Source: Gammaproteobacteria bacterium (GTDB lineage Bacteria > Pseudomonadota > Gammaproteobacteria > Pseudomonadales > Azotimanducaceae). Taken from it: DNA of 64,000 nt. The notes beneath the pieces were generated by a model. It was not told the DNA's origin. It worked only from the letters and a program-made list of their open reading frames with translations, and made no database searches. Location of the stretch: positions 1 to 64,000 of the forward strand of contig SMWF01000019.1 in assembly GCA_004357385.1 (NCBI GenBank), read 5' to 3'. How positions within the stretch are numbered: the first letter of the stretch is position 1; each line of letters opens with the position of its first letter. Below are positions 12,138-46,977 of the stretch, in pieces. A program made the position numbers and the translations under genes.

Positions 12138-13172
12138 ATGGACATTACCGAGCTACTTGCGTTCAGTGCGAAGCAAGGCGCGTCGGACCTCCACCTCTCT
12201 GCCGGACTTCCCCCGATGATTCGGGTCGACGGAGACGTGCGTAGGATCAATCTGCCACCCCTCGAGCACAGCGAAGTGCATTCGTTGATCTACGAGATCA
12301 TGAATGACAAGCAGCGCAAGGACTACGAGGAATTTCTGGAAACGGACTTCTCCTTCGAGGTGCCTGGTGTTGCTCGGTTTCGCGTCAACGCATTCAACCA
12401 GAACCGCGGCGCGGGTGCGGTATTTCGAACCATTCCGTCCAAGGTGCTCACCATGGAGGACCTCGGCCTTGGCCAGGTCTTCAAAGACATCTCGATGGTG
12501 CCGCGTGGTCTTGTTCTGGTAACGGGCCCGACCGGCTCCGGCAAAAGTACCACCATGGCGGCGATGGTCGATTTCATCAACGACAATCGCTACCAGCATA
12601 TCCTCACCATTGAGGACCCGATTGAATTCGTTCACGAGAGCAAGAAGTGTCTCGTCAACCAACGTGAAGTGCACCGGGATACCCACGGCTTCAACGAAGC
12701 GCTGCGGGTCGCATTGCGAGAGGACCCCGACATCATTCTCATCGGCGAGATGCGCGACCTCGAAACCATCCGTCTCGCGCTAACCGCGGCGGAAACAGGC
12801 CACCTGGTGTTCGGTACGCTGCATACGACCTCCGCATCGAAGACGGTCGACCGGATCATCGACGTGTTCCCGGCCGCAGAAAAAGAGATGTGTCGCTCGA
12901 TGCTTTCCGAGTCGCTCCAGGCGGTGATCGCGCAAACGCTGTTGAAACGGGTCAACGGAGGACGGGTCCCCGCTTTCGAAATCATGATTGGCACGCCTGC
13001 CATCCGAAATCTGATTCGTGAAGGCAAGGTTGCGCAGATGTATTCCGCCATTCAGACCGGCGCCAAGGTGGGCATGCAGACCCTCGATCAGTGCCTCGAG
13101 GAGTTGGTCGCAAAGCGCACCATTACGAGAGAAATCGCACGAGAAAAGGCAAAAATGCCGGAGAATTTTTAA
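12138..13172 (+). CDS. pilT: Twitching motility retraction ATPase PilT
   Basis: PilT is the hexameric ATPase that depolymerises type IV pili and powers retraction. The 344-residue protein has the N-terminal block (SDLHLSAGLPP), Walker A GPTGSGKSTT, the Asp box (ILTIEDPIEFVH), Walker B DPDIILIGEMRD, the His box ETGHLVFGTLHT and the retraction-specific C-terminal helix region (AIRNLIREGKVAQMYSAIQTG). ATG 12138 follows a weak GGA-type ribosome site. It is followed after 28 bases by pilU, with a nonamer repeat in the gap. Confidence 0.98.
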   Translation: MDITELLAFSAKQGASDLHLSAGLPPMIRVDGDVRRINLPPLEHSEVHSLIYEIMNDKQRKDYEEFLETDFSFEVPGVARFRVNAFNQNRGAGAVFRTIPSKVLTMEDLGLGQVFKDISMVPRGLVLVTGPTGSGKSTTMAAMVDFINDNRYQHILTIEDPIEFVHESKKCLVNQREVHRDTHGFNEALRVALREDPDIILIGEMRDLETIRLALTAAETGHLVFGTLHTTSASKTVDRIIDVFPAAEKEMCRSMLSESLQAVIAQTLLKRVNGGRVPAFEIMIGTPAIRNLIREGKVAQMYSAIQTGAKVGMQTLDQCLEELVAKRTITREIAREKAKMPENF

Positions 13173-13173
13173 C

Positions 13174-13198
13174 GGTCCCGAAGGTCCCGAAGGTCCCG
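13174..13198. repeat. Tandem nonamer repeat between pilT and pilU
   Basis: GGTCCCGAA at 13174-13182 and 13183-13191 plus a partial third unit GGTCCCG (13192-13198) fill the pilT-pilU gap. On the other strand the unit is GGGACCTTC. The same 9-mer, with one variable base, recurs in tandem inside chpA (22017-22043) and gcvPB (45543-45578), so it looks like a dispersed short repeat family. The array stands where the pilU ribosome site would be expected, and no clear Shine-Dalgarno remains. Confidence 0.85.
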
Positions 13199-13200
13199 CT

Positions 13201-14340
13201 ATGGAATTCGACAAACTTTTGAAACTGGTGGTGGAGAAAGGCGCCTCCGACCTGTTCATCACCGCTGCGCGACCGCCGTCGATGAAGATCAACGGTAAGA
13301 TTTTTGCCGTGTCGAAAAACGCACTCTCTCCGGAGCAGGCGCGGGAGCTCGTGCTGGGGACCATGAACAAAGAACAACAGGACACGTTCAAGGCCGAGCA
13401 CGAGTGCAATTTTGCGATCAACAGGCGCGGTCTCGGCCGGTTCCGCGTCAGCGCGTTTTATCAGCGCAATCTCATTGGCATGGTGTTGCGTCGGATAGAA
13501 GCGAATATCCCCAAAATCGCCGAGCTGGGCCTGCCGCCGATCGTCGAAGAACTGGCCATGACGAAACGAGGACTGATCATTTTCGTCGGCGCGACTGGTA
13601 CCGGTAAATCCACGTCACTTGCTGCCATGATTGGCCACCGCAACCTGAACTCCAGCGGCCACATCATCAGCATCGAAGACCCGATCGAGTACGTGCATCA
13701 GCACGAAGGTTGTATCGTTACGCAGCGTGAAGTCGGCGTGGATACTGAAAGCTTCGACGTCGCACTGAGGAACACCCTGCGTCAGGCGCCGGATGTCATC
13801 ATGATCGGTGAGGTGCGGACGCGGGAAACAATGGAACATTCGGTTACGTTTGCTGAAACGGGGCACCTGTGCCTGTGTACGTTGCACGCTAACAATGCCA
13901 ACCAGGCGCTCGATCGGATCATTCACTTCTTTCCCAGCGATCGCCATGATCAGATCTGGATGGATCTATCGCTCAATCTCAAGGCGATCGTCGCTCAGCA
14001 GCTGGTCCCCACGGTGGACGGCCAAGGCCGCCGCGCCGCGATCGAGGTATTGATCAACACGCCGCTGATGTCTGACCATATCCGCAAAGGGGAAGTCCAC
14101 CTGCTGAAAGACTTGATGAGCAAATCGACCGAGCAGGGGATGCAGACCTTCGACCAGGCTTTGTATCGGTTGTACACAGCGGGCGAGGTGACCTACGACG
14201 CCGCGTTGGCACACGCTGACTCGCCGAACGATCTGCGGTTGATGATCAAACTGGGTACCGACGCCAGTGAAGATCCTATGGCGGGCGTCGACGGCCTTAC
14301 GCTCGAAGAGTCCGAAACCGCTTCCAGTTATCGGCGTTGA
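13201..14340 (+). CDS. pilU: PilT-like retraction ATPase PilU
   Basis: PilU is the PilT paralog that boosts pilus retraction force together with PilT. From ATG 13201 the 379-residue protein begins MEFDKLLKLVVEKGASDLF as in homologs; an in-frame extension back into pilT is not coding. It has Walker A GATGTGKSTS, EDPIEYVHQHEG, Walker B DVIMIGEVRTRE and the His box ETGHLCLCTLHANN. It ends by overlapping the convergent ruvX by 13 bases. Confidence 0.97.
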   Translation: MEFDKLLKLVVEKGASDLFITAARPPSMKINGKIFAVSKNALSPEQARELVLGTMNKEQQDTFKAEHECNFAINRRGLGRFRVSAFYQRNLIGMVLRRIEANIPKIAELGLPPIVEELAMTKRGLIIFVGATGTGKSTSLAAMIGHRNLNSSGHIISIEDPIEYVHQHEGCIVTQREVGVDTESFDVALRNTLRQAPDVIMIGEVRTRETMEHSVTFAETGHLCLCTLHANNANQALDRIIHFFPSDRHDQIWMDLSLNLKAIVAQQLVPTVDGQGRRAAIEVLINTPLMSDHIRKGEVHLLKDLMSKSTEQGMQTFDQALYRLYTAGEVTYDAALAHADSPNDLRLMIKLGTDASEDPMAGVDGLTLEESETASSYRR

Positions 14341-20076: not shown

Positions 20077-23000
20077 ATGACAGCAGGCCGAGAACACTTC
20101 GCCCTCGACTGGCTCAAAGATGAGCTCGACGAAACGCTGAAGGTTGCGCGCCTGGCGCTGGAATCCTATTCGGAGTCCGGGCAGGACGCGACGCGAATGC
20201 GCAATTGTCTGACGGCGCTACATCAAGTTCACGGCACGCTGCTGATGCTCGAATTGACGGGTGTGACGGTGCTGTCTGACGAACTCGAGCAGCTTGCCCA
20301 GGCGATGCATGATGGGACGGTCGTTGATCTGGACGCCGCGCAGCAACTGCTGATGCAGGGAATCCTGCAACTGCCCGCGCATCTGGAGGAAATTCAGAGA
20401 GGCCTGCCGGATACACGTCGCGCCGTATTGGTACTCGCCAACGACATTCGTCTGGCGCGTGGCGAACGGGGTTTTTCCGATGCGGCGGGTTTGACGCCGA
20501 CCGAACTGCTGCGACCGGCTGATAGTAAATCTCTGGACCGGTTCGATGAAATCGACGGGGCCGATAAGGCGCGGAAGATTCGCGGCGCCTTCCAGCAGGT
20601 CCTGCTTTCGTTGCTCAAAGGCCGGGGTCGGGACGACGCTGCTGCGGTGTTGTCCAAGGTGGCGGTCGGATTAGAACGGATCTGCGAAGGCGCACCTATT
20701 GTGGTGCTGTGGCGGGCGTTGGGCGCGTACCTTGGCAGCGTGGCAGCCGCCGGTGACGCGTTGAGTGGCGATGTTGTGAAAGTACTTCGCCGGGTTGATG
20801 CCGAAATCAAGAACCTGGCGACCATCGGCAGAGAAGCGCTCCTGCAACCGGTCAACACGGCGCTGGTCGGGGTGCTGGTGGACGCTGCCATTCAACGGGG
20901 CGCCGAGAACGTCGAGCTCAGGCAGATCGCCGACGCGCTGGCGCTGGAAGCAGGGTCCCAGACGGCGGCGATTTCCGGTCGCGAAGCAATGCAACACGCC
21001 GCCAGCGCGTTGCGGGAAGATCTGGCAGCGATCAAGGATCAGTTGGACATGTTCGTACGCTCGGACGAGCGCACGGCGGATGGATTCAAACAGCTTGCCA
21101 CGCCCCTCAGGCAGATCGGTAGTACGCTGTCGATACTGGGATTTGAAAGCTCGCGTGAAATTCTTTCGGACCAGGTTTCGGCATTGAACGCGGCATTGGA
21201 AACCGGTGTTGTCGACGATGCGGTGTTGATGGGTATTGCCGGAGCGCTGATTCAGGTCGATGAGAACCTTGCCGCGCTTGGACGTTCGCGCACCTCGACG
21301 CTCGCGGGAACGAGTGAAGCCGCGGCGATCATTTCGGATGCCCAGGTCGCAGTGCTCAACGAAGCGCGCAACGGCCTGGATGAAACCAAGCATGCGGTGG
21401 TCGACTACATCACCGCGCAATGGGATGTCAGCCGGTTGGAGGCGATTCCCGATTTGCTCAACGCGGTAAAGGGAGCGCTGGCCATCGTGCCCCTGGCAAT
21501 GCCGGCAGTGCTCCTGGGACAGTGCGCGGATTACGTCAGAAATCATTTGCTGCGTGGCGAGAAACCCGATTGGCAGGCCCTGGATCATTTTGCCGACGCG
21601 ATCAGTGGGGTTGACTACTTCCTCGAGCGCCTGATCGCGGAAGGCGCGCCCCCGGGCGATGAGATTCTGGTGGTTGTGCAGCGCAGCCTCGCGGCGCTTG
21701 GCGTTGCGGGGTTAGACCCGGACGAGGTCACCGCCGAACCGGTACTCATGGAAGCTGTCACCGAGACTGCCGAGGCCGAGAATGAAGCCGCCCGCGATGA
21801 ACGCGCCCGCGATGAACCCGCGCGCGATGAAGCTGCCCGCGATGGACCCGCCGAGGATCCATCTGCGAGCCCGGACAGTGAGTTTTCACTGGAGCTGCTC
21901 GATGAGCCCGAACCAGAACCACCCACAGCTCAGGAGGGTGGAGCGCGTGTAGAAGAAGCAGACGTAGCACCGGATGCGGTGGAGCACGTCCAGGTGGATG
22001 CGCCCGTTGCCGCGACGGGACCATCGGGACCATCGGATCCATCGGAGCTAGCCCTCGAGCCGATGGATGAACAACCCGTTGGCGCGATGGCGGACGATGA
22101 GGAGCCATCTCCGATCGTCGAGGCGGTGGAGTTCAGTCGCGAGGAGCATGAGTTCGACGCCCTCGCCGAGTCAACTGCACCAGAGTCTCCTGCCGGCGAC
22201 GAGGACGCCGACGCCGTGGATGGCGAGGCGCCGCTCGAACAACCGGTGCCCCTGGCACCGGTGGCAGAGGAACCCGCTGACGTAACCGATGAAGAATTCG
22301 ACGAGGAGATCGTTGAAATCTTCGCCGAGGAAGTGACCGAGGTGCTCGCGTCGGTCGATGACTGGTTGCCGCAGTGGGCCGACGGGTATTCAAACGAGGA
22401 GGCGTTGACCGAGACCCGGCGCGCGTTCCACACGCTCAAAGGCAGCGGTCGAATGGTGGGCGCGGAGGTGATCGGCAAGCTGGCCTGGTCGATCGAGAAC
22501 ATGCTCAACCGGGTCATGGACGGCACCATCGAGCCCCACGAACAGGTGGTATCGCTGATTGGTGAAGCGAGCCGCCTGATCCCGTCGCTTAGCGAAGCGT
22601 TTCGTGCGCGGCAGCCGGTTGAAGAAGAATCCATTGCCGCAATCGTGGGGAGAGCCGATGTGCTCTCCTCGGGCGGGCGTATCGAGGAGCTTGATGCTCC
22701 GGTCGAGATTCCGGACGAAGCGGAAGTCGAAGCTGATTTCGAATCCGGGCCAGACATGGAAGCGCAGCAGATATCGACCGTTGGAACGTCGCAAGAGCCG
22801 GACTTGCATGAGCCGGAAGTCGACGTGCCGGAAACGGTAGCCGTCGATGAACCGGAGACTCTTGCCGACAGCGCTAAAGACCCCAAGGTGATGGCGCTCT
22901 TCGAGGAAGAGGCGAATCGTCAACTCGAAATTCTGGAGAGCCGGTTCAACAGCGAGGACGACATCGCCGAACTCGAACTCGACGAGGCGGTTATGCGTGC

Positions 23001-26000
23001 GCTGCATACCCTTCGCGGCAGCGCCGCGATGGCTGGCATCGACGGCGTTGCAGGGGTTGCCACCCCACTGTACGAAGTGGCGACAGCGTTCAGGGATACG
23101 ATGCAGACAATCACCCCGGACCTGTTCGATTTCCTCCAGCAAGGCGTGTTCGCCTTGCGCCGTAGCCTTGATGCGCTGGGCGCCGGGAACGAGCCGGATG
23201 AAGACCAGTCGTTGTTTGAATCCGAGGCACGGCGAATTATCGCGGAGCTGGGTGCCGATCACGCATCAGGACTCAGCTCTCTGTTGCAGCTCGACGGCAC
23301 CTCGGTCCTGGTCGGTGCGAGCGATCAGCTGATCGATTGGCGCCAAAGTGGCTCTCCTTCCGATGGTCTGGTGGATGTGGTGGCGGCGCTCCACGAGGTT
23401 CGGAACGAATGCCAGAGCCGGGGCATGGACGGGGTAGCGGATCTCTGCGACGGTCTGATTGAAAGCTACGAACATTTCGAAGCCGTCCCGCCTTCAGCGG
23501 CCGCGTTCGAGTCGTTGGACGAAGGTCACGAACTGCTGCTGGAGGTGTTCGATCGCATCGCGGCGGATCAGGAACCGCCCGATATGACCCCTGGGGTTGG
23601 CAAGCTGGCAGCGGCCAGGTTGGAAGCGCCCGAAACCTTATCAGCGCCGCCTAAGGCGGACCCGGAGTTGGGCAGCGCGGAAGTATTCAAATTCCCGACC
23701 GTGGACACCAAAGCCCCGACGGATGGCGGGCCGGATTTGCCCGGGCCTGAGCTGCAGGCGCAGCCCGAGGAAACGCCCCCCGACCAAGCGGGGCCCGCGG
23801 CGGAACAACGGAACGTGGCACGGCGCACGCTCCAGCTGCCCGATGATGTCGATGAGGAAATTCTGGAGATCTTCTTCGAGGAGGCGGATGAGCTTCTCGA
23901 ATCCATCGATCACGGTGTTCATGAATGGATCGACGCGCGTGACAATCGCGTGTACTTGGAAAACCTTCTGCGAGACCTGCATACGCTGAAAGGCGGCGCC
24001 AGGCTTGCCGGACTGATGGAGCTTGGCGACGAAACTCATGCCCTGGAGTCCCACCTGGTGGCGGTGCAGAACGAAGAAGCCGCTCCGGACGATGAGTTTT
24101 TCAGCGACCTGCAACGACGCCACGATGAACTTGCCACGACCGTGTTGCTGCTCAAGGCGGCCGCACAGGGTGAGGAAATAGATCCGGAGAGCGTGCCGGC
24201 CGGGGTGGATGCCCCCGTCGAGAGTCAGCTCCCTGACGATGAGCCCGCGGAAGCCAATGCGGAACCCGAGGTGGCTGCGGCCAAAGACCTCGAGGTCGCT
24301 ACGGCCGAAGAACCGATCGTACCGGTAGAGCCTGCGGAGCTGCAGACTGCAGAAGTGGCGCCGTTGGACCTGGAAACGGAACCGGAAACCGAGTCCCAGG
24401 CCCAGACGCCGGCGCGGGCGAGCGAGCCACGCGAGATGGTCCGGGTTTCGGCGACCCTGCTCGAAGAATTGGTCAATCTGGCCGGCGAAAACAGTATCGT
24501 TCGATCGCGAATAGAACAGGTTATCAACGATTTCTCCGGGTCCCTGGAAGAAATGGAAACCACCATCGAACGGGTTCGCGAGCAGCTCCGGCGCCTGGAG
24601 ATCGAGACTGAAGCGCAGGTGTTGTTCCGCCACGCACGCGGCGATGGGCCTGTCTATGATGAGTTCGATCCGTTGGAAATGGATCGTTACTCCCAGCTGC
24701 AGCAGGTGTCCAAAAGCCTGTCGGAAACCGCCTCCGACATGTTGGAATTGAAGGAAACCCTGGCGAACAAGGTGCGCGAGTCCGAAACGCTGCTCATTCA
24801 GCAGGCACGGGTCAACACGGAACTTCAGGAAGGCCTCATGCGTACCCGCATGGTGCCCTTCAGCCGATTGCTGCCGCGCTTGCGCAGAATCGTAAGACAG
24901 GTGGCCCGCGACCTTGGCAAGCAGGTCGAATTCCACGCCTTTAACGCCGAGGGCGAGTTAGACCGCAATGTGCTCGAACGCATGGTTCCAGCGCTGGAAC
25001 ACATGCTGCGCAACTCGGTCGATCACGGGATCGAGATGCCCAACGTGCGCTCCAACTTCGGCAAGCCCGAGTTGGGCCGGATCGATCTGCGTCTGTCACG
25101 TGAGGCCGGCGATGTCGTCATTGAGATCACCGACGATGGCGCCGGTATCGACGTCGAAACCGTGCGCGCCAAAGCGATTGAACGGGGCTTGATGTCCGCG
25201 GACGCCTGGATGGCGGACGACGACATTCTGCAGTTCGTGCTGGCGCCCGGATTTACCACGGCAAAGGAGGTCACCCAGATATCCGGTCGAGGCGTTGGCA
25301 TGGACGTGGTACACAGCGCCGTCAAAGAGCTCGGCGGCAGCATCGACATCATGTCGATGCCGGGCAAAGGCACGCGCTTTACGGTACGCCTGCCGTTTAC
25401 GGTTTCCGTCAGCCGAGCGCTGATGGTGTCGGTGGGCGACGATATGTATGCGGTGCCGTTGAACAACATCGAAGGTATCGTTCGGGTCGCTACGCGAGAG
25501 CTCGCTGAGCTGTCCGACCCAAAAGGTATGGGTTTCGAATACGCGGGCGTGCCCTACCGGGTGCGCTATCTGGGGAGCTACATCGGGCGCGAATACGTGC
25601 CGCGTCCCGATCAGACGTCGGTGCCGATGGTACTGTTCCGTTCCGGAGACCAGGCGCTGGCGGTACATGTCGACAGCGTGCAGGGCAGCCGGGAGATCGT
25701 GGTGAAGAGTCTCGGGCCGCAATTTGCTGGTGTCGGTGGAATCTCGGGCGCAACGATTCTCGGCGATGGCAGTGTGGTGGTGATCCTCGATCTCATCACG
25801 TTGATTCGCGCGGACACGGGAGCCAGCACGCAGGTGCGGTCGGAACGACCGCAGTACGCGAGCGATCCAGCTCGGCCGAAATGCGTAATGGTGGTGGACG
25901 ACTCCGTCACCGTTCGCAAAGTAACGTCGCGTCTGCTCGAACGACAGGGCATGGAAGTGATCGTAGCCAAGGACGGGGTAGAAGCGATGGCGCTGCTGCA

Positions 26001-26241
26001 GGAACGACGCCCGGACATCATTCTTCTCGACATCGAAATGCCACGGATGGATGGCTTCGAGGTGGCCCGCCAGGTGCGTCACGATCAGGGGTTCGCAGAG
26101 CTGCCGATCGTCATAATCAGCTCGCGGACAGGCAGCAAGCATCAGGAGCGCGCCACCGAGCTTGGTGTCAATCGATTCCTTGGCAAACCGTTCCAGGAGA
26201 GCGAGTTACTCGCGATCATCGACGAGCTGGTGGAAATATGA
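20077..26241 (+). CDS. chpA: ChpA hybrid histidine kinase of the pilus chemosensory system
   Basis: ChpA is the CheA-type kinase that phosphorylates PilG and PilH. The 2054-residue protein has, in order: a degenerate N-terminal Hpt (LHQVHGTL around 48-55); a long helical region; an acidic linker with 15-bp repeats (about 570-595) and a GPS repeat (about 647-656); three good Hpt domains with phospho-His H785 (HTLKGSG), H977 (HTLRGSA) and H1302 (HTLKGGAR); dimerisation and ATPase domains (about 1450-1770; HMLRNSVDHGIE, DDGAGID, GRGVGMDVV); a CheW-like domain; and a receiver with phospho-acceptor D1985. Pseudomonas ChpA is longer with more Xpt domains. No pilK precedes it. Confidence 0.97.
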   Translation: MTAGREHFALDWLKDELDETLKVARLALESYSESGQDATRMRNCLTALHQVHGTLLMLELTGVTVLSDELEQLAQAMHDGTVVDLDAAQQLLMQGILQLPAHLEEIQRGLPDTRRAVLVLANDIRLARGERGFSDAAGLTPTELLRPADSKSLDRFDEIDGADKARKIRGAFQQVLLSLLKGRGRDDAAAVLSKVAVGLERICEGAPIVVLWRALGAYLGSVAAAGDALSGDVVKVLRRVDAEIKNLATIGREALLQPVNTALVGVLVDAAIQRGAENVELRQIADALALEAGSQTAAISGREAMQHAASALREDLAAIKDQLDMFVRSDERTADGFKQLATPLRQIGSTLSILGFESSREILSDQVSALNAALETGVVDDAVLMGIAGALIQVDENLAALGRSRTSTLAGTSEAAAIISDAQVAVLNEARNGLDETKHAVVDYITAQWDVSRLEAIPDLLNAVKGALAIVPLAMPAVLLGQCADYVRNHLLRGEKPDWQALDHFADAISGVDYFLERLIAEGAPPGDEILVVVQRSLAALGVAGLDPDEVTAEPVLMEAVTETAEAENEAARDERARDEPARDEAARDGPAEDPSASPDSEFSLELLDEPEPEPPTAQEGGARVEEADVAPDAVEHVQVDAPVAATGPSGPSDPSELALEPMDEQPVGAMADDEEPSPIVEAVEFSREEHEFDALAESTAPESPAGDEDADAVDGEAPLEQPVPLAPVAEEPADVTDEEFDEEIVEIFAEEVTEVLASVDDWLPQWADGYSNEEALTETRRAFHTLKGSGRMVGAEVIGKLAWSIENMLNRVMDGTIEPHEQVVSLIGEASRLIPSLSEAFRARQPVEEESIAAIVGRADVLSSGGRIEELDAPVEIPDEAEVEADFESGPDMEAQQISTVGTSQEPDLHEPEVDVPETVAVDEPETLADSAKDPKVMALFEEEANRQLEILESRFNSEDDIAELELDEAVMRALHTLRGSAAMAGIDGVAGVATPLYEVATAFRDTMQTITPDLFDFLQQGVFALRRSLDALGAGNEPDEDQSLFESEARRIIAELGADHASGLSSLLQLDGTSVLVGASDQLIDWRQSGSPSDGLVDVVAALHEVRNECQSRGMDGVADLCDGLIESYEHFEAVPPSAAAFESLDEGHELLLEVFDRIAADQEPPDMTPGVGKLAAARLEAPETLSAPPKADPELGSAEVFKFPTVDTKAPTDGGPDLPGPELQAQPEETPPDQAGPAAEQRNVARRTLQLPDDVDEEILEIFFEEADELLESIDHGVHEWIDARDNRVYLENLLRDLHTLKGGARLAGLMELGDETHALESHLVAVQNEEAAPDDEFFSDLQRRHDELATTVLLLKAAAQGEEIDPESVPAGVDAPVESQLPDDEPAEANAEPEVAAAKDLEVATAEEPIVPVEPAELQTAEVAPLDLETEPETESQAQTPARASEPREMVRVSATLLEELVNLAGENSIVRSRIEQVINDFSGSLEEMETTIERVREQLRRLEIETEAQVLFRHARGDGPVYDEFDPLEMDRYSQLQQVSKSLSETASDMLELKETLANKVRESETLLIQQARVNTELQEGLMRTRMVPFSRLLPRLRRIVRQVARDLGKQVEFHAFNAEGELDRNVLERMVPALEHMLRNSVDHGIEMPNVRSNFGKPELGRIDLRLSREAGDVVIEITDDGAGIDVETVRAKAIERGLMSADAWMADDDILQFVLAPGFTTAKEVTQISGRGVGMDVVHSAVKELGGSIDIMSMPGKGTRFTVRLPFTVSVSRALMVSVGDDMYAVPLNNIEGIVRVATRELAELSDPKGMGFEYAGVPYRVRYLGSYIGREYVPRPDQTSVPMVLFRSGDQALAVHVDSVQGSREIVVKSLGPQFAGVGGISGATILGDGSVVVILDLITLIRADTGASTQVRSERPQYASDPARPKCVMVVDDSVTVRKVTSRLLERQGMEVIVAKDGVEAMALLQERRPDIILLDIEMPRMDGFEVARQVRHDQGFAELPIVIISSRTGSKHQERATELGVNRFLGKPFQESELLAIIDELVEI
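21784..21858 (+). repeat. Five 15-bp tandem repeats in the chpA linker
   Basis: Five units of 15 bases (21784-21798, 21799-21813, 21814-21828, 21829-21843, 21844-21858) follow the pattern GAAnCnGCCCGCGAT, the last one diverged. They encode E-x-A-R-D pentapeptides in the acidic linker between the N-terminal region and the first canonical Hpt. Because the unit is a multiple of three, copy changes would keep the frame and only alter linker length. Confidence 0.9.
22017..22043 (+). repeat. Nonamer repeat (GGGACCATC) in the chpA linker
   Basis: GGGACCATC occurs at 22017-22025 and 22026-22034, followed by GGATCCATC at 22035-22043. They encode Gly-Pro-Ser, Gly-Pro-Ser, Asp-Pro-Ser in the kinase linker. 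The unit differs by one base from the reverse complement of the pilT-pilU repeat at 13174, so both probably belong to the same dispersed repeat family. Confidence 0.85.
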
Positions 26242-26274: not shown

Positions 26275-26763
26275 ATGGCGGCCGTGGCGATAAATGACTC
26301 GACGGAACTGGCCTGTGTACTGATCCCGCTTGGGACGACGCAGCTATTGTTGCCCAACGTCTCGATTGCGGAGATCATTCCCTGGCGCCGGCTCAAGGCA
26401 TGGGAAGCGTCGCCGGATTGGTGCATCGGCCTGGTGGGCTGGCGCGGCGAGGCGGTGCCGGTGTTGGAATTCGAGGCGCTCGGCAACTCGGTCGAGGCGC
26501 GTGCCGAACGCGGCCGTTGCCTGGTGATCATGAACCGGGCACGATCCAGCGTGGGACGTCCGTTCTACGCACTGGTGTCCACGGGCCTGCCGCGTCTGGT
26601 GCACCTCACCGCCGCTGACATGGAAAGCCACCCGATCCAACTGGGTGATGCGGAAGTCGCCTCGGTCTTGGTCGGAACGGAACCGGCTATCGTGCCGAAC
26701 CTGAGCTTTATCGAGGAACGGCTCTCCGGGCTACCGGAAGCCAGCCTTCGCGCTGAGGGTTGA
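26275..26763 (+). CDS. chpC: CheW-like protein ChpC
   Basis: A 162-residue CheW-domain protein (CVLIPLGTTQLLLPNVSIAEIIPW, WCIGLVGWRGEAVPVLEFEAL) at the end of the Pil-Chp operon, 33 bases after chpA. It fits ChpC, the second adaptor of the Pseudomonas cluster, proposed to link other receptors to ChpA. The methylesterase gene chpB, which lies between chpA and chpC in Pseudomonas, is missing. It converges on rsmE. Confidence 0.88.
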   Translation: MAAVAINDSTELACVLIPLGTTQLLLPNVSIAEIIPWRRLKAWEASPDWCIGLVGWRGEAVPVLEFEALGNSVEARAERGRCLVIMNRARSSVGRPFYALVSTGLPRLVHLTAADMESHPIQLGDAEVASVLVGTEPAIVPNLSFIEERLSGLPEASLRAEG

Positions 26764-26802
26764 AGGTCCGCCGAAGGCTCGCTAATGGCGCCCGCCCGCA
26801 CA

Positions 26803-35950: not shown

Positions 35951-37468
35951 ATGCTGGAACGATACGTGAAGAAAATCCTCGCGTCGCGGGTGTACGACGT
36001 TGCCGTGGAGACACCCCTGGACGAGGTACCGAACCTGTCGCGGCGCCTGGGGAACCGGGTGTATCTGAAGCGCGAGGATCTGCAGCCGGTATTCTCGTTC
36101 AAGATCCGTGGGTCCTACAACAAGATGGCACAACTGACGGATGCGGAGCGGGCCCGCGGCGTCGTCGCAGCATCCGCGGGCAACCATGCCCAGGGTGTTG
36201 CCCTGGCGGCCCGGGAACTGGGAATCGCCGCACACATCGTCATGGGGCGCAACTCCCCGGAGATCAAGATCAGTGCGGTGAAAAATCTGGGCGCACGGGT
36301 CCTGTTGCGTGGCGATAGCTATGACGAAGCCGCAGTCTACGCCCAGCAACTGGTGCAGCAGCACGATTACGTATTCGTCCATCCCTATGACGATCCCGAT
36401 GTGATTGCCGGCCAGGGGACGATCGGAATGGAGATCATCAACCAGCATGGCGGTGCGATTCACGCGATCTTTGTGCCGGTGGGCGGTGGCGGGCTCATCG
36501 CGGGCATCGCCGCGTACGTGAAATATCTGCGCCCGGAGATTCGGATAATTGGCGTGGAGGCGGAAGGGTCTGCGTGTCTGACCGCTGCGCGGGCCGCCAA
36601 CAGGCGTGTTAAGTTGCGTTACGATAGCCTGGATCTGTTCGCCGACGGAGTGTCAGTGGCGCAGGTGGGCAAGGAACCGTTCAAAATCGCACGCCGTTGG
36701 GTCGACGACGTCATTACGGCCAGCACCGATGAAATCTGCGGTGCGATCAAGGACATTTTCGACGATACCCGCAGCATTGCAGAACCGGCGGGAGCGTTGG
36801 CGGTCGCCGGATTGAAAAAGTACGTGGCGCTCAGCGGGGTGAGCGGCGAGGACTTGATCGCCATCGATAGCGGCGCCAATGTCAACTTCGACAGGCTGCG
36901 ACACATTTCTGAACGGGCGGAGCTTGGTGAGAAACGCGAAGCGATCCTGGGTGTGACTATTCCCGAGCGGCCGGGGAGCTTCAGACGATTCTGCCGCCTG
37001 TTGGGTAAACGTAACATCACCGAGTTCAACTACCGCTATGCGGACTCTGCCGCGGCCCAGGTCTACGTGGGCGTTCAGGTCGCGTCCGAAGAGGACCGGA
37101 CCCCGCTGATCGACGGGCTACGCAAGTCCGGCTACGAGGTCCAGGACATGACCGACAACGAGGTCGCTAAGCTGCACGTGCGGCATATGGTGGGCGGACG
37201 GGGCGACGGTGATCGGGAGGAGATTCTGTATCGCTTCGAATTTCCCGAGCGGCCGGGCGCGCTGCTGAAATTTCTTGGCGGTCTGGGGTCGAAATGGAAC
37301 ATTACGATGTTCCACTACCGCAATCACGGTGCGGCCTGGGGCCGAGTCCTGGCCGGCTTCCAGGCGTCCCGTGGCGATCGTCGAGCGTTGTCGGGGTTCC
37401 TCGACCAGATCGGCTATCGCTATTGGGAAGAGAGCGAGAACCCGGCGTATCGGATGTTTCTGCGATAG
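35951..37468 (+). CDS. ilvA: Threonine ammonia-lyase, biosynthetic
   Basis: IlvA deaminates threonine to 2-oxobutanoate, the first step of isoleucine synthesis, and is inhibited by isoleucine. The product (505 residues from ATG 35951) has the PLP lysine in PVFSFKIRGSYNK, GGGGLIAGIA and a C-terminal pair of ACT-like regulatory domains (IPERPGSFRRFCRLLG; FPERPGALLKFLGGLG). ATG 35921 would add ten residues; 35951 matches the Pseudomonas start MLExYVKKIL. It converges on def across the 22-bp repeats. Confidence 0.95.
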   Translation: MLERYVKKILASRVYDVAVETPLDEVPNLSRRLGNRVYLKREDLQPVFSFKIRGSYNKMAQLTDAERARGVVAASAGNHAQGVALAARELGIAAHIVMGRNSPEIKISAVKNLGARVLLRGDSYDEAAVYAQQLVQQHDYVFVHPYDDPDVIAGQGTIGMEIINQHGGAIHAIFVPVGGGGLIAGIAAYVKYLRPEIRIIGVEAEGSACLTAARAANRRVKLRYDSLDLFADGVSVAQVGKEPFKIARRWVDDVITASTDEICGAIKDIFDDTRSIAEPAGALAVAGLKKYVALSGVSGEDLIAIDSGANVNFDRLRHISERAELGEKREAILGVTIPERPGSFRRFCRLLGKRNITEFNYRYADSAAAQVYVGVQVASEEDRTPLIDGLRKSGYEVQDMTDNEVAKLHVRHMVGGRGDGDREEILYRFEFPERPGALLKFLGGLGSKWNITMFHYRNHGAAWGRVLAGFQASRGDRRALSGFLDQIGYRYWEESENPAYRMFLR

Positions 37469-37475
37469 CCTTTCA

Positions 37476-37562
37476 CTAAGCCGCCGCGGGCGCTTGACTA
37501 AGCTGCCGCGGGCGCCTTACTAAGCCGCTGCGGACTGTTTCTAAATCGCCGCGGGCACTTCG
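37476..37562. repeat. Four 22-bp tandem repeats spanning the def stop codon
   Basis: Four copies lie at 37476-37497, 37498-37519, 37520-37540 (21 bases) and 37541-37562. The core on the plus strand is CTAAGCCGCCGCGGGCGCTT. The fourth copy contains the last codons and the TAG stop of def on the minus strand, so the three others are duplicates of the def 3' end placed between def and the convergent ilvA. Each copy carries TTAG on the minus strand and a CCGCGG-like palindromic core. Confidence 0.9.
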
Positions 37563-38758: not shown

Positions 38759-38767
38759 GTATCGATT

Positions 38768-38949
38768 GCCTCCCGGAGATGCCGCTGTACAGGTTGGCCC
38801 TGAACCGTATTGGCTCAAGGCGGAGACTCGGGCAGCGACAAAGGCGTCCCGCAAACGGCGGGCATGCACACAGGCGAAGTCGCCGAAATCCCCTGTAGTT
38901 TCTCTAACGGCTCAAGGACGACACCAGACTGGCGAGCATCCCAGGAGAC
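38768..38949 (-). ncRNA. ssrS: 6S RNA
   Basis: 6S RNA binds sigma-70 RNA polymerase in stationary phase by mimicking an open promoter. It is placed in the zapA-fau gap, its standard site. On the minus strand the 3' half reads like known 6S: the CCUUGAGCCAAUACGGUUCAGGG hairpin area, then ACAGCGGCAUCUCCGGGAGG, which pairs with CUCCUGGGAUGC near the 5' end. CCUUGAGCCGUUA near the 5' end matches CCUGAGCCGAUA of E. coli. A -10 box TATACT lies at 38956-38961, giving a start near 38949 and about 182 nt. Exact ends are inferred. Confidence 0.9.
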
Positions 38950-39057
38950 GCTGGCAGTATAGCCGAAACGAGCCTCGGCACACGCCATTGACGCCGATCT
39001 GTGATCGAGTTATAGAAACGTATTCCTTTGCGCCGCAGCCTACTCTGGCTGGCCGGT

Positions 39058-44113: not shown

Positions 44114-45484
44114 ATGCCATTCATTCCCCACACGGCGGCCGAAGTGGACGCCATGCTCGATGCGATTGGAGCTGAGTCCATCGAGCAACTGTTCGATGAA
44201 ATTCCATCCCAATTGCGTGCGGGGGAACTGCGTACGGTGCCCGAAGCGCGTAGCGAAATGGCCATGCTGCGGCTCATGGGCGAGCGCGCCCGGAAGGATC
44301 AGCTTCAGCTCTGCTTTCTCGGGGCGGGTTGCTACGATCACCACATTCCGAGCGCTGTCTGGGACATCACCCAGCGCGGTGAGTTTCTCACCGCCTACAC
44401 GCCGTACCAGGCCGAAGCGAGCCAGGGCACGCTGCAAGTGATTTACGAATACCAAAGCATGATGACCGCGCTGACGGCGCTCGACGTGTCCAATGCGTCG
44501 GTCTACGACGGCGCCAGCGGGCTTGCCGAAGCGGTCCTGATGGCGGTGCGCGCCAACCGGAAGAACAAGTCGCGCAGGGTGCTCATGGCCGAGACCGTCC
44601 ACCCGCTGTACCGGCAGACCGTTGCCACGATCGTGCGCAATCAGGGCATTGCTCTGGACAGTTTGCCGATGACCGCCAGCGGCGTGGTGGATCCGGCCGC
44701 GCTGAACGGTCATGCCGAGCCGCCGGTGGCGCTCGTGGTGCAACAGCCCAACTTCTTCGGGTTGCTGGAACAGGTCGATGAATTAACGGACTGGGCTGCG
44801 GCTCATGACGTGCTGGTCATCGCGGTGGTCAATCCGACCTCGCTGGCAATTCTCAAACCGCCCGGCCAGTGGGGTGAGGGCGGTGCCGACATCGCCTGCG
44901 GTGATGGCCAGCCCCTCGGCATTCCGATGGCATCGGGTGGACCGTCCTTCGGTTTCATTTGCTGTCGGCAGGCGTTCGTGCGACAGCTGCCGGGTCGAAT
45001 CATCGGCCGTACGGAGGATCTGGATGGCCGCACCGGTTTCACCCTCACCCTGCAAGCACGGGAACAGCACATCCGCCGCGCCAAGGCGACCTCCAACATC
45101 TGTACCAACCAGGGGCTGCTGGTGACTGCGGGTACCATTTATCTCAGCTTGCTCGGCCCGGCGGGGCTCGAAGGGGTCGCCGGTCAATGTCACCGGCGTA
45201 CCGCCCAACTGGCGAGTGCCGCCGTGACGCTGCCGGGTGTCACGGAACGCTTCGCGGGCCCGTTTTTTCACGAGCGGGTGCTCGCGTTGCCCTGCGAGGC
45301 GGAACCCGTCGCCGAGAAGCTCGCAGCTCGCGGGATTCTCGCCGGCCTGCCGCTGGGTGATTACTTTCCCGAATTGTCGCGATGTCTGTTGGTTTGCGGT
45401 ACCGAGAAGCACAGCGACGAAGACATCGAGCGCTACGTGACGGAACTCGGAGCAGCCCTGTCTTCGACGGAGGCGGTGGCATGA
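44114..45484 (+). CDS. gcvPA: Glycine dehydrogenase subunit 1 (P protein, N-terminal half)
   Basis: GcvPA is the N-terminal half of the split glycine decarboxylase; with GcvPB it decarboxylates glycine and loads H-protein. The 456-residue protein has [43 protein letters not shown] and [12 protein letters not shown]. It overlaps gcvPB by four bases (ATGA). Split P protein contrasts with the single-chain GcvP of Pseudomonas and E. coli. Confidence 0.96.
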
Positions 45485-46977
45485 ACCGCGACACCAGAAC
45501 CATCTTCGAGCTGTCCAGGCCCGGACGAATGGCGACGGCTCAGGTCCCGAAGGTCCCGAAGGCCCCGAAGGCCCCGGCGGCGGTCGAGATGGCCGATATC
45601 CCGGTCAACCTGCGCCGCCCGTCGCGCCCCGGCTTGCCGGAAGTGTCGGAACTGCAGGTTGTGCGCCACTACACCAACCTGTCGCGCAAGAATTTCTCCA
45701 TCGAGAATCAATTCTACCCGCTGGGTTCCTGCACCATGAAGTACAACCCTCGCGGTACTCACCATGCGGCCGCGCAGCCCGGTTTCCCCGGCCGGCACCC
45801 GCTGGCGCCCGCGGCGCACAGCCAGGGCTTTCTCGAGTGTCTGTTCGATCTGCAGGAGATTCTCAAGGACGTTACCGGCATGACCGGCGTGTCGCTGACC
45901 CCCATGGCGGGGGCCCAGGGGGAGTTCGCCGGGGTTGCGATGATCCGTGCCTATCATGAGGCCCGCGGCGATGCGGCCCGCTCGGAAATTCTGATCCCCA
46001 ACGCCGCCCATGGCACCAATCCGGCGACCGCGGTGATGTGTGGGTATGGCGTGCGCGAGGTGCCGTTAACCCCTGACGGCGACGTCGATCTGGACGCCTT
46101 GAAGGCCAGCGTCGGACCACAGACCGCGGGACTGATGATGACCAATCCGTCGACTTGTGGAGTGTTCGACCGGCGCATCGAGGGAATCGCGGCAACGGTT
46201 CACGATGCGGGCGGTCTGCTTTATTACGACGGCGCCAACCTGAATGCGATTCTCGGCAAGGTGAAACCCGGCGACATGGGCTTCGATGTCCTGCACATGA
46301 ACCTGCACAAGACCTTCGCCACACCCCACGGCGGCGGCGGTCCCGGGTCGGGACCGGTGGGAGTGAATGATAAGCTTGCGCCCTATCTCCCCGTGCCGAT
46401 GGTCGGCCGGGATGACGCGGGGGGATTTCGCTGGCTGACCCAGCAGGATGTGCCGGGCAGCATCGGCCGGTTGTCGGCATTCATGGGCAACGCGGGCATC
46501 CTGTTGCGGGCCTTCGCGTATGCACTGATGCTGGGCCGCGAGGGCATGCACCGGGTCGGCGAATTTGCGACGTTGAACGCGAATTACATGGCGGCCCGTC
46601 TGGCGGAGCACGGCTTTGCGCTGGCCTATCCGCAGCGCCGCGCCAGTCACGAATTCGTGATCACCTTCGCAGAACAGGCCAAGACCCTCGGTGTGTCCGC
46701 GATGGACATCGCCAAACGGCTGCTGGACTACGGCTTTCATTCGCCCACCACCTATTTTCCGTTGCTGGTGCCCGAATGCTTTCTGATCGAGCCGACCGAA
46801 ACGGAAACCAAGGAGGAGCTTGACGCGTTCATCGAAGCGCTGGTGGCCATCCTGCGGGAGGCGGAGTCAGACCCGGAACTCGTCCTCAGCGCACCGCAGA
46901 GTCTGCCGGTGAAACGGCTCGACGACGTAAAGGCCGCCCGAGAACTGGACCTGGCATACCGCCCCCCAGGGGAATAA
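45481..46977 (+). CDS. gcvPB: Glycine dehydrogenase subunit 2 (P protein, C-terminal half)
   Basis: GcvPB holds the pyridoxal phosphate site of the split glycine decarboxylase. The 498-residue protein has [13 protein letters not shown], the PLP-Lys in [20 protein letters not shown] and the C-terminal [13 protein letters not shown]. Residues about 22-32 ([11 protein letters not shown]) come from four tandem 9-bp repeats at 45543-45578 and are not a usual part of this family; they lengthen a linker between IFELSRPGR and ADIPVNL. Confidence 0.96.
45543..45578 (+). repeat. Four nonamer repeats in the gcvPB N-terminus
   Basis: GGTCCCGAA (45543-45551), GGTCCCGAA (45552-45560), GGCCCCGAA (45561-45569) and GGCCCCGGC (45570-45578) are in tandem and, read in the gcvPB frame, give [11 protein letters not shown]. 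The first two units are identical to the pilT-pilU repeat at 13174. Sharing one exact 9-mer array in two unrelated genes argues for a dispersed repeat family. Confidence 0.88.

Follow-up and report, generated by a model that had tools for sequence, protein, structure and literature searches.

GGTYCCGAA, a dispersed and mostly genic 9-bp tandem repeat in a gammaproteobacterial genome, with a copy in the pilT-pilU gap

Dispersed tandem repeats built from a single unit are known in bacteria (STRR, TAACTGA and GGGAATC repeats). The STRR heptamers of heterocystous cyanobacteria are short tandemly repeated repetitive sequences that occur dispersed through a single lineage, and REPIN/RAYT systems consist of short palindromic repeats, tied to a Y1 transposase, which spread to dispersed sites of a genome. 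The TAACTGA direct repeats of marine Beggiatoaceae have a 7-mer unit that carries a stop in each of the three forward frames; they are dispersed over one genome in tandem sets of 2-6 (169 sets, mostly intergenic) and are common to distant lineages; they are often found beside a start codon or at the end of a protein, the abundance of the single unit is no predictor of the repeats, similar units seldom repeat, and the mechanism of spread is unknown (PMC4679880). The GGGAATC/GGGGAYT heptamers of Xanthomonas and Nostoc are lineage-enriched, dispersed and tandem, with length variation, and are G-rich, quadruplex-forming and, in Xanthomonas, ~90% intergenic (PMC4692102, where Calothrix heptanucleotides are also cited).

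We analysed a repeat with the unit GGTYCCGAA, one array of which (GGTCCCGAAGGTCCCGAAGGTCCCG, its GGTCCCGAA units 100% matched) lies between pilT and pilU in the window, a 64,000-nt stretch of a gammaproteobacterial genome (Table 1). It is a sequence-specific, frame-independent tandem family of 11-12 arrays, absent from the orthologous sites examined. With occupation of many unrelated sites above controls, tandem occurrence beyond its single-unit abundance and an apparent restriction to one lineage, it is a lineage-specific dispersed repeat of the TAACTGA/STRR kind, with a new unit and habitat (a stop-free 9-mer, mostly genic). The closest precedent is the TAACTGA family, with which it shares a single short dispersed tandem unit, discord between single and tandem abundance and tolerance at protein ends, but from which it differs as a stop-free 9-mer whose sets, roughly twelve in one genome, mostly lie within genes or abut them. 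The GGGAATC/GGGGAYT heptamers come second: they too are lineage-enriched dispersed tandem units, but GGG is absent from the GGTYCCGAA strand and is present on the opposite one only when Y is C, and the repeat does not qualify as a quadruplex former by the criterion of runs of at least 3 G in at least 4 tandem units. Scatter in one lineage is common to STRR, which differ in unit length, host group and coding location, whereas REPIN/RAYT are set apart by a unit that, on direct reading, is not palindromic here and by the lack of a Y1_Tnp match in this genome. A search of the literature gave no direct precedent for 9-mer families in bacteria.

Table 1. Arrays, associated genes and array hosts (coordinates in the window)
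Feature	Coordinates	Strand	Remarks
Array (GGTCCCGAA)2.8	13174..13198	+	Fills the pilT-pilU gap
pilT (retraction ATPase)	12138..13172	+	ORF upstream of the array; also matched by the PilU search (38% identity)
pilU	13201..14340	+	Start conserved among relatives (ATGGAATTCGACAAA)
Variant array, unit GGTCCCGAT, 3.3 copies	22016..22045	-	chpA interdomain linker; membership uncertain
chpA-type hybrid chemotaxis kinase (Hpt, CheW, HATPase, response regulator)	20077..26241	+	
Array (GGYCCCGAA)3.9 in gcvPB	45542..45576	+	11 residues of the N-terminal linker
gcvPB (glycine dehydrogenase subunit 2)	45481..46977	+	Name from the original prediction and from position 3' of a related subunit gene
Array host, type II secretion protein I			Leader, upstream of its methylation motif
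Array host, DUF6502 protein			C-terminal tail
Array host, HU protein			Tail
Array host, MFS transporter			N-terminus
Array host, GcvPB			N-terminal linker
Array host, DUF3014			Loop
Array host, alpha/beta hydrolase			Internal segment
Array host, VWA/CoxE protein			Linker before the VWA/CoxE domain
Array host, two ABC exporter genes			Their junction
Array host, CDGSH protein gene			Gap after the gene
Array host, C87 ORF			No Pfam match; uncertain

The original prediction had placed a 9-bp tandem repeat between pilT and pilU, with recurrences in gcvPB and chpA and a degraded pair at 26763-26783, and had held this to be more than chance. The first array is present with 2.8 perfect units, and the recurrence in gcvPB holds, two copies of GGTCCCGAA being followed there by GGCCCCGAA. 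In chpA there is indeed a tandem 9-bp array, but its unit differs from the family unit by one base, and its membership is doubtful because dimers of the wider class, including the chpA variant, occur in relatives too. The degraded pair dissolves into two GAAGG words at another spacing, with no 9-bp tandem. The departure from chance was borne out both genome-wide and in the window, where GGGACCWTC was found 6 times versus 1.5 expected, a count reached in 0 of 100 shuffles. Among other features of the window, the chpA linker region carries a second tandem array (21782-21852, 15-bp unit ATGAACCCGCCCGCG, 4.7 copies) near the 9-bp variant, a 22-bp tandem repeat (37475-37533, 2.7 copies) begins just past an ORF ending at 37468, and an Rfam scan of the window gave 6S RNA (SsrS; 38766-38950, minus strand, 80.5 bits) and nothing else.

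We searched the whole assembly (3.47 Mb, 142 contigs, ~93% complete) with the unit pattern and, as control, with the same pattern letter-reversed (AAGCCCTGG for GGTCCCGAA). The 18-bp dimer with at most 2 mismatches gave 29 matches at 14 places versus 3 for the reversed pattern, and the GGTYCCGAA dimer with at most one mismatch gave 24 versus 0. The dimer matches fall into 11 loci (C28, C65 twice, C84, C87, C115, C121, C127, C129, C133 and C140), with a degenerate twelfth on C84, so that the further copies expected by the original prediction do exist, as 11-12 separate arrays of ~2-5 units (2-4 in most). The single 9-mer, by contrast, is near chance (111 occurrences, arrays counted in, versus 89 for the reversed word); since it is hardly enriched, the tandem state is what is special. 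In 0.8 Mb there were 24 perfect 9-bp duplications, of which 10 were of GGTCCCGAA or GGTTCCGAA, the only recurrent unit, and the rest were mostly one-offs; this sample came from contigs known to carry arrays, and the comparison of 24 with 6 duplications is inflated by that choice and unfit as a rate. An unbiased duplicate scan covered 1.16 Mb of stretches, and relatives and other stretches of the source genome had assorted 9-bp duplications at similar density without a recurring unit. That the family is a product of chance or of assembly is hardly credible: perfect 9-bp duplications of assorted units are common in this bacterial family (~28-40 per Mb), but these are different units, against one unit at a dozen loci and 0-3 in reversed controls, and the arrays sit on separate contigs, inside conserved genes that run on without a break. 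Plain slippage does not account for the amplification of one 9-mer at a dozen sites over others of equal single-copy abundance. Elsewhere in the source genome, a perfect array of an unrelated 9-mer (GACGAACCC, ~5 copies) occurs at L044:11505-11548.

In a search for the GGTYCCGAA dimer in 57 relatives, 36 of them from the same family as the source genome, only two carried a match, each a single one with one mismatch. Among ~85,000 species, a scan that may omit records of the source genome itself, three exact units were found in 13 unrelated records with one array apiece, and no second genome had two such loci. Within the collections searched, the family is private to the source lineage, and only GGTYCCGAA with its close transitions is specific. 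The broader GGNYCCGRN was rejected as family unit, given that relatives show a background of GGA, GGC and GAC forms, and dimers of the generic form CCGNAGG show no enrichment in relatives, their matches in the source genome being nearly all the unit itself. A viral origin was also set aside: five viral contigs had one array each, and three of the five give the same protein stretch as prokaryote matches.

The arrays lie on both strands and in at least four reading frames (GPE, VPK, FGT and SGP), mostly at gene edges and in surface linkers, and the majority are inside or overlap coding sequence, unlike those of typical, predominantly intergenic families. The host genes are unrelated and have no common protein family. 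In the type II secretion protein I (L001:1466-1580), the array makes up much of the leader before GFTLIELL, a part expected to be cleaved in maturation. By direct reading, GGTYCCGAA is stop-free in all six frames, and its 9 bp equal three codons, keeping the frame; this is a simple reason for its genic life, and the arrays can persist in genes because each unit adds three codons and no stop.

In line with the original prediction, orthologous sites are empty in relatives, with no array in the pilT-pilU gap, GcvPB linker, DUF3014 loop or MFS N-terminus, the proteins compared being roughly 45-84% identical. Between pilT and pilU, relatives have anywhere between 10 and more than 100 nt, unrelated in sequence; the GcvPB segment from AQ to DIP has 17 residues in the source genome versus ~8-14 in most relatives; the DUF3014 loop exceeds that of most relatives by 6-7 residues; and the MFS N-terminus before WPF varies in every relative and has the repeat in none. 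Possible seeds stand at two of these sites, CAGGTNCCN (AQVP) in the GcvPB orthologs of two relatives and, in loops of DUF3014 orthologs, GAAGG or E-G. These data bear on a shared coding need, in which Gly-Pro-Glu or Val-Pro-Lys linkers would be under protein selection. Several copies do lie in linkers, some reading GPE or VPK, and where an unrelated record has an isolated array, it falls in a long open frame that reads GPE, GSE, VPK or FGT there. However, the frames include antisense ones, some copies are intergenic, and at the corresponding positions relatives have sequences that differ in both letters and length. Coding need is refuted as sole cause by the diversity of frames together with the pilT-pilU copy, leaving the original prediction standing on this point, and we hold the explanation to be very improbable.

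With fair but by no means full confidence, we favour a lineage-private dispersed short tandem repeat whose arrays were seeded at various places in the genome, lengthened through slippage by 9 bp, filtered by selection and tolerated because the unit is three codons long and stop-free. To seed an array, a short stretch would be copied during replication or repair, probably at a site that already had a partial unit such as GAAGG or AGGTCCCG; arrays would then grow or shrink in 9-bp units by slippage, and selection would clear them from structured domains. A mini-hairpin, CC-GAA-GG, was considered as the driver of slippage and rejected: in nearest-neighbour DNA folding the unit is no more structured than its shuffles, and the reversed-letter control folds equally. 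As the rule for extending arrays let only unit positions 3 and 4 vary, invariance at the other positions is not evidence.

Mobile insertion, in which a preformed array is copied by an enzyme or from a template, in the manner of a tiny mobile element or of repeats being added to broken ends, is in our view unlikely. That one specific unit fills a dozen unrelated sites, while its single copies are about as frequent as chance predicts, fits array copying better than independent slippage, and the GGTCCC and GGTTCC sub-types each recur at several loci. On the other hand, flank sharing is not above control (12 shared 8-mers versus 12.5), arrays start and end in varied phases within unrelated flanks rather than at fixed junctions, inverted repeats were not seen in them by eye, and the ~93% complete assembly has no match to Y1 transposase (Y1_Tnp) or reverse transcriptase (RVT_1), the two domains sought; moreover, the partial seeds at two orthologous sites fit growth in place. 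Of the 'small mobile or slippage-spread repeat' first proposed, one family in unrelated places is upheld, while mobility finds no support in shared flanks, fixed junctions or these domains. A distinctly improbable further reading is that a templated repeat-adding process, active in this lineage, writes the 9-mer where DNA is broken or its synthesis has stalled; the arrays would then be repair scars with an outcome like that of eukaryote interstitial telomeric repeats. The family is small, comes from a single lineage in the data searched and lies mainly in genes that have orthologs, and its insertions are therefore datable and its empty sites readable in principle; large intergenic families seldom allow either.

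Between pilT and pilU, the first base of the array is 1 nt past the pilT stop and the last is 2 nt short of the pilU ATG (13201). The original prediction had the array replacing the expected ribosome site of pilU, which proved not to be so: the array itself brings its final GAAGG (13189-13193) to 7 nt ahead of the ATG, which we take to be a workable Shine-Dalgarno position, and this last GAAGG could act as the pilU ribosome site. The GAAGG-ATG spacing is kept on gain or loss of units as long as at least two remain. The array may possibly tune PilU, and at this site it is probably neutral or mildly useful. It is improbable, to our mind, that the family as a whole consists of regulatory sites that bind protein or act as elements of translation start, a role already suggested for TAACTGA repeats. 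Such a role would agree with the prevalence of gene edges and with the GAAGG words before pilU and ~11 nt before the start of the C121 exporter gene, but arrays also lie deep in coding sequence (DUF3014 loop, alpha/beta hydrolase, VWA protein), their orientation is mixed, the downstream genes share no theme, and folding found no unusual structure in the pilU leader. Within 26763-26785 of the window, a GAAGG also stands 7 nt before an ATG (at 26785), a spacing identical to that of pilU.
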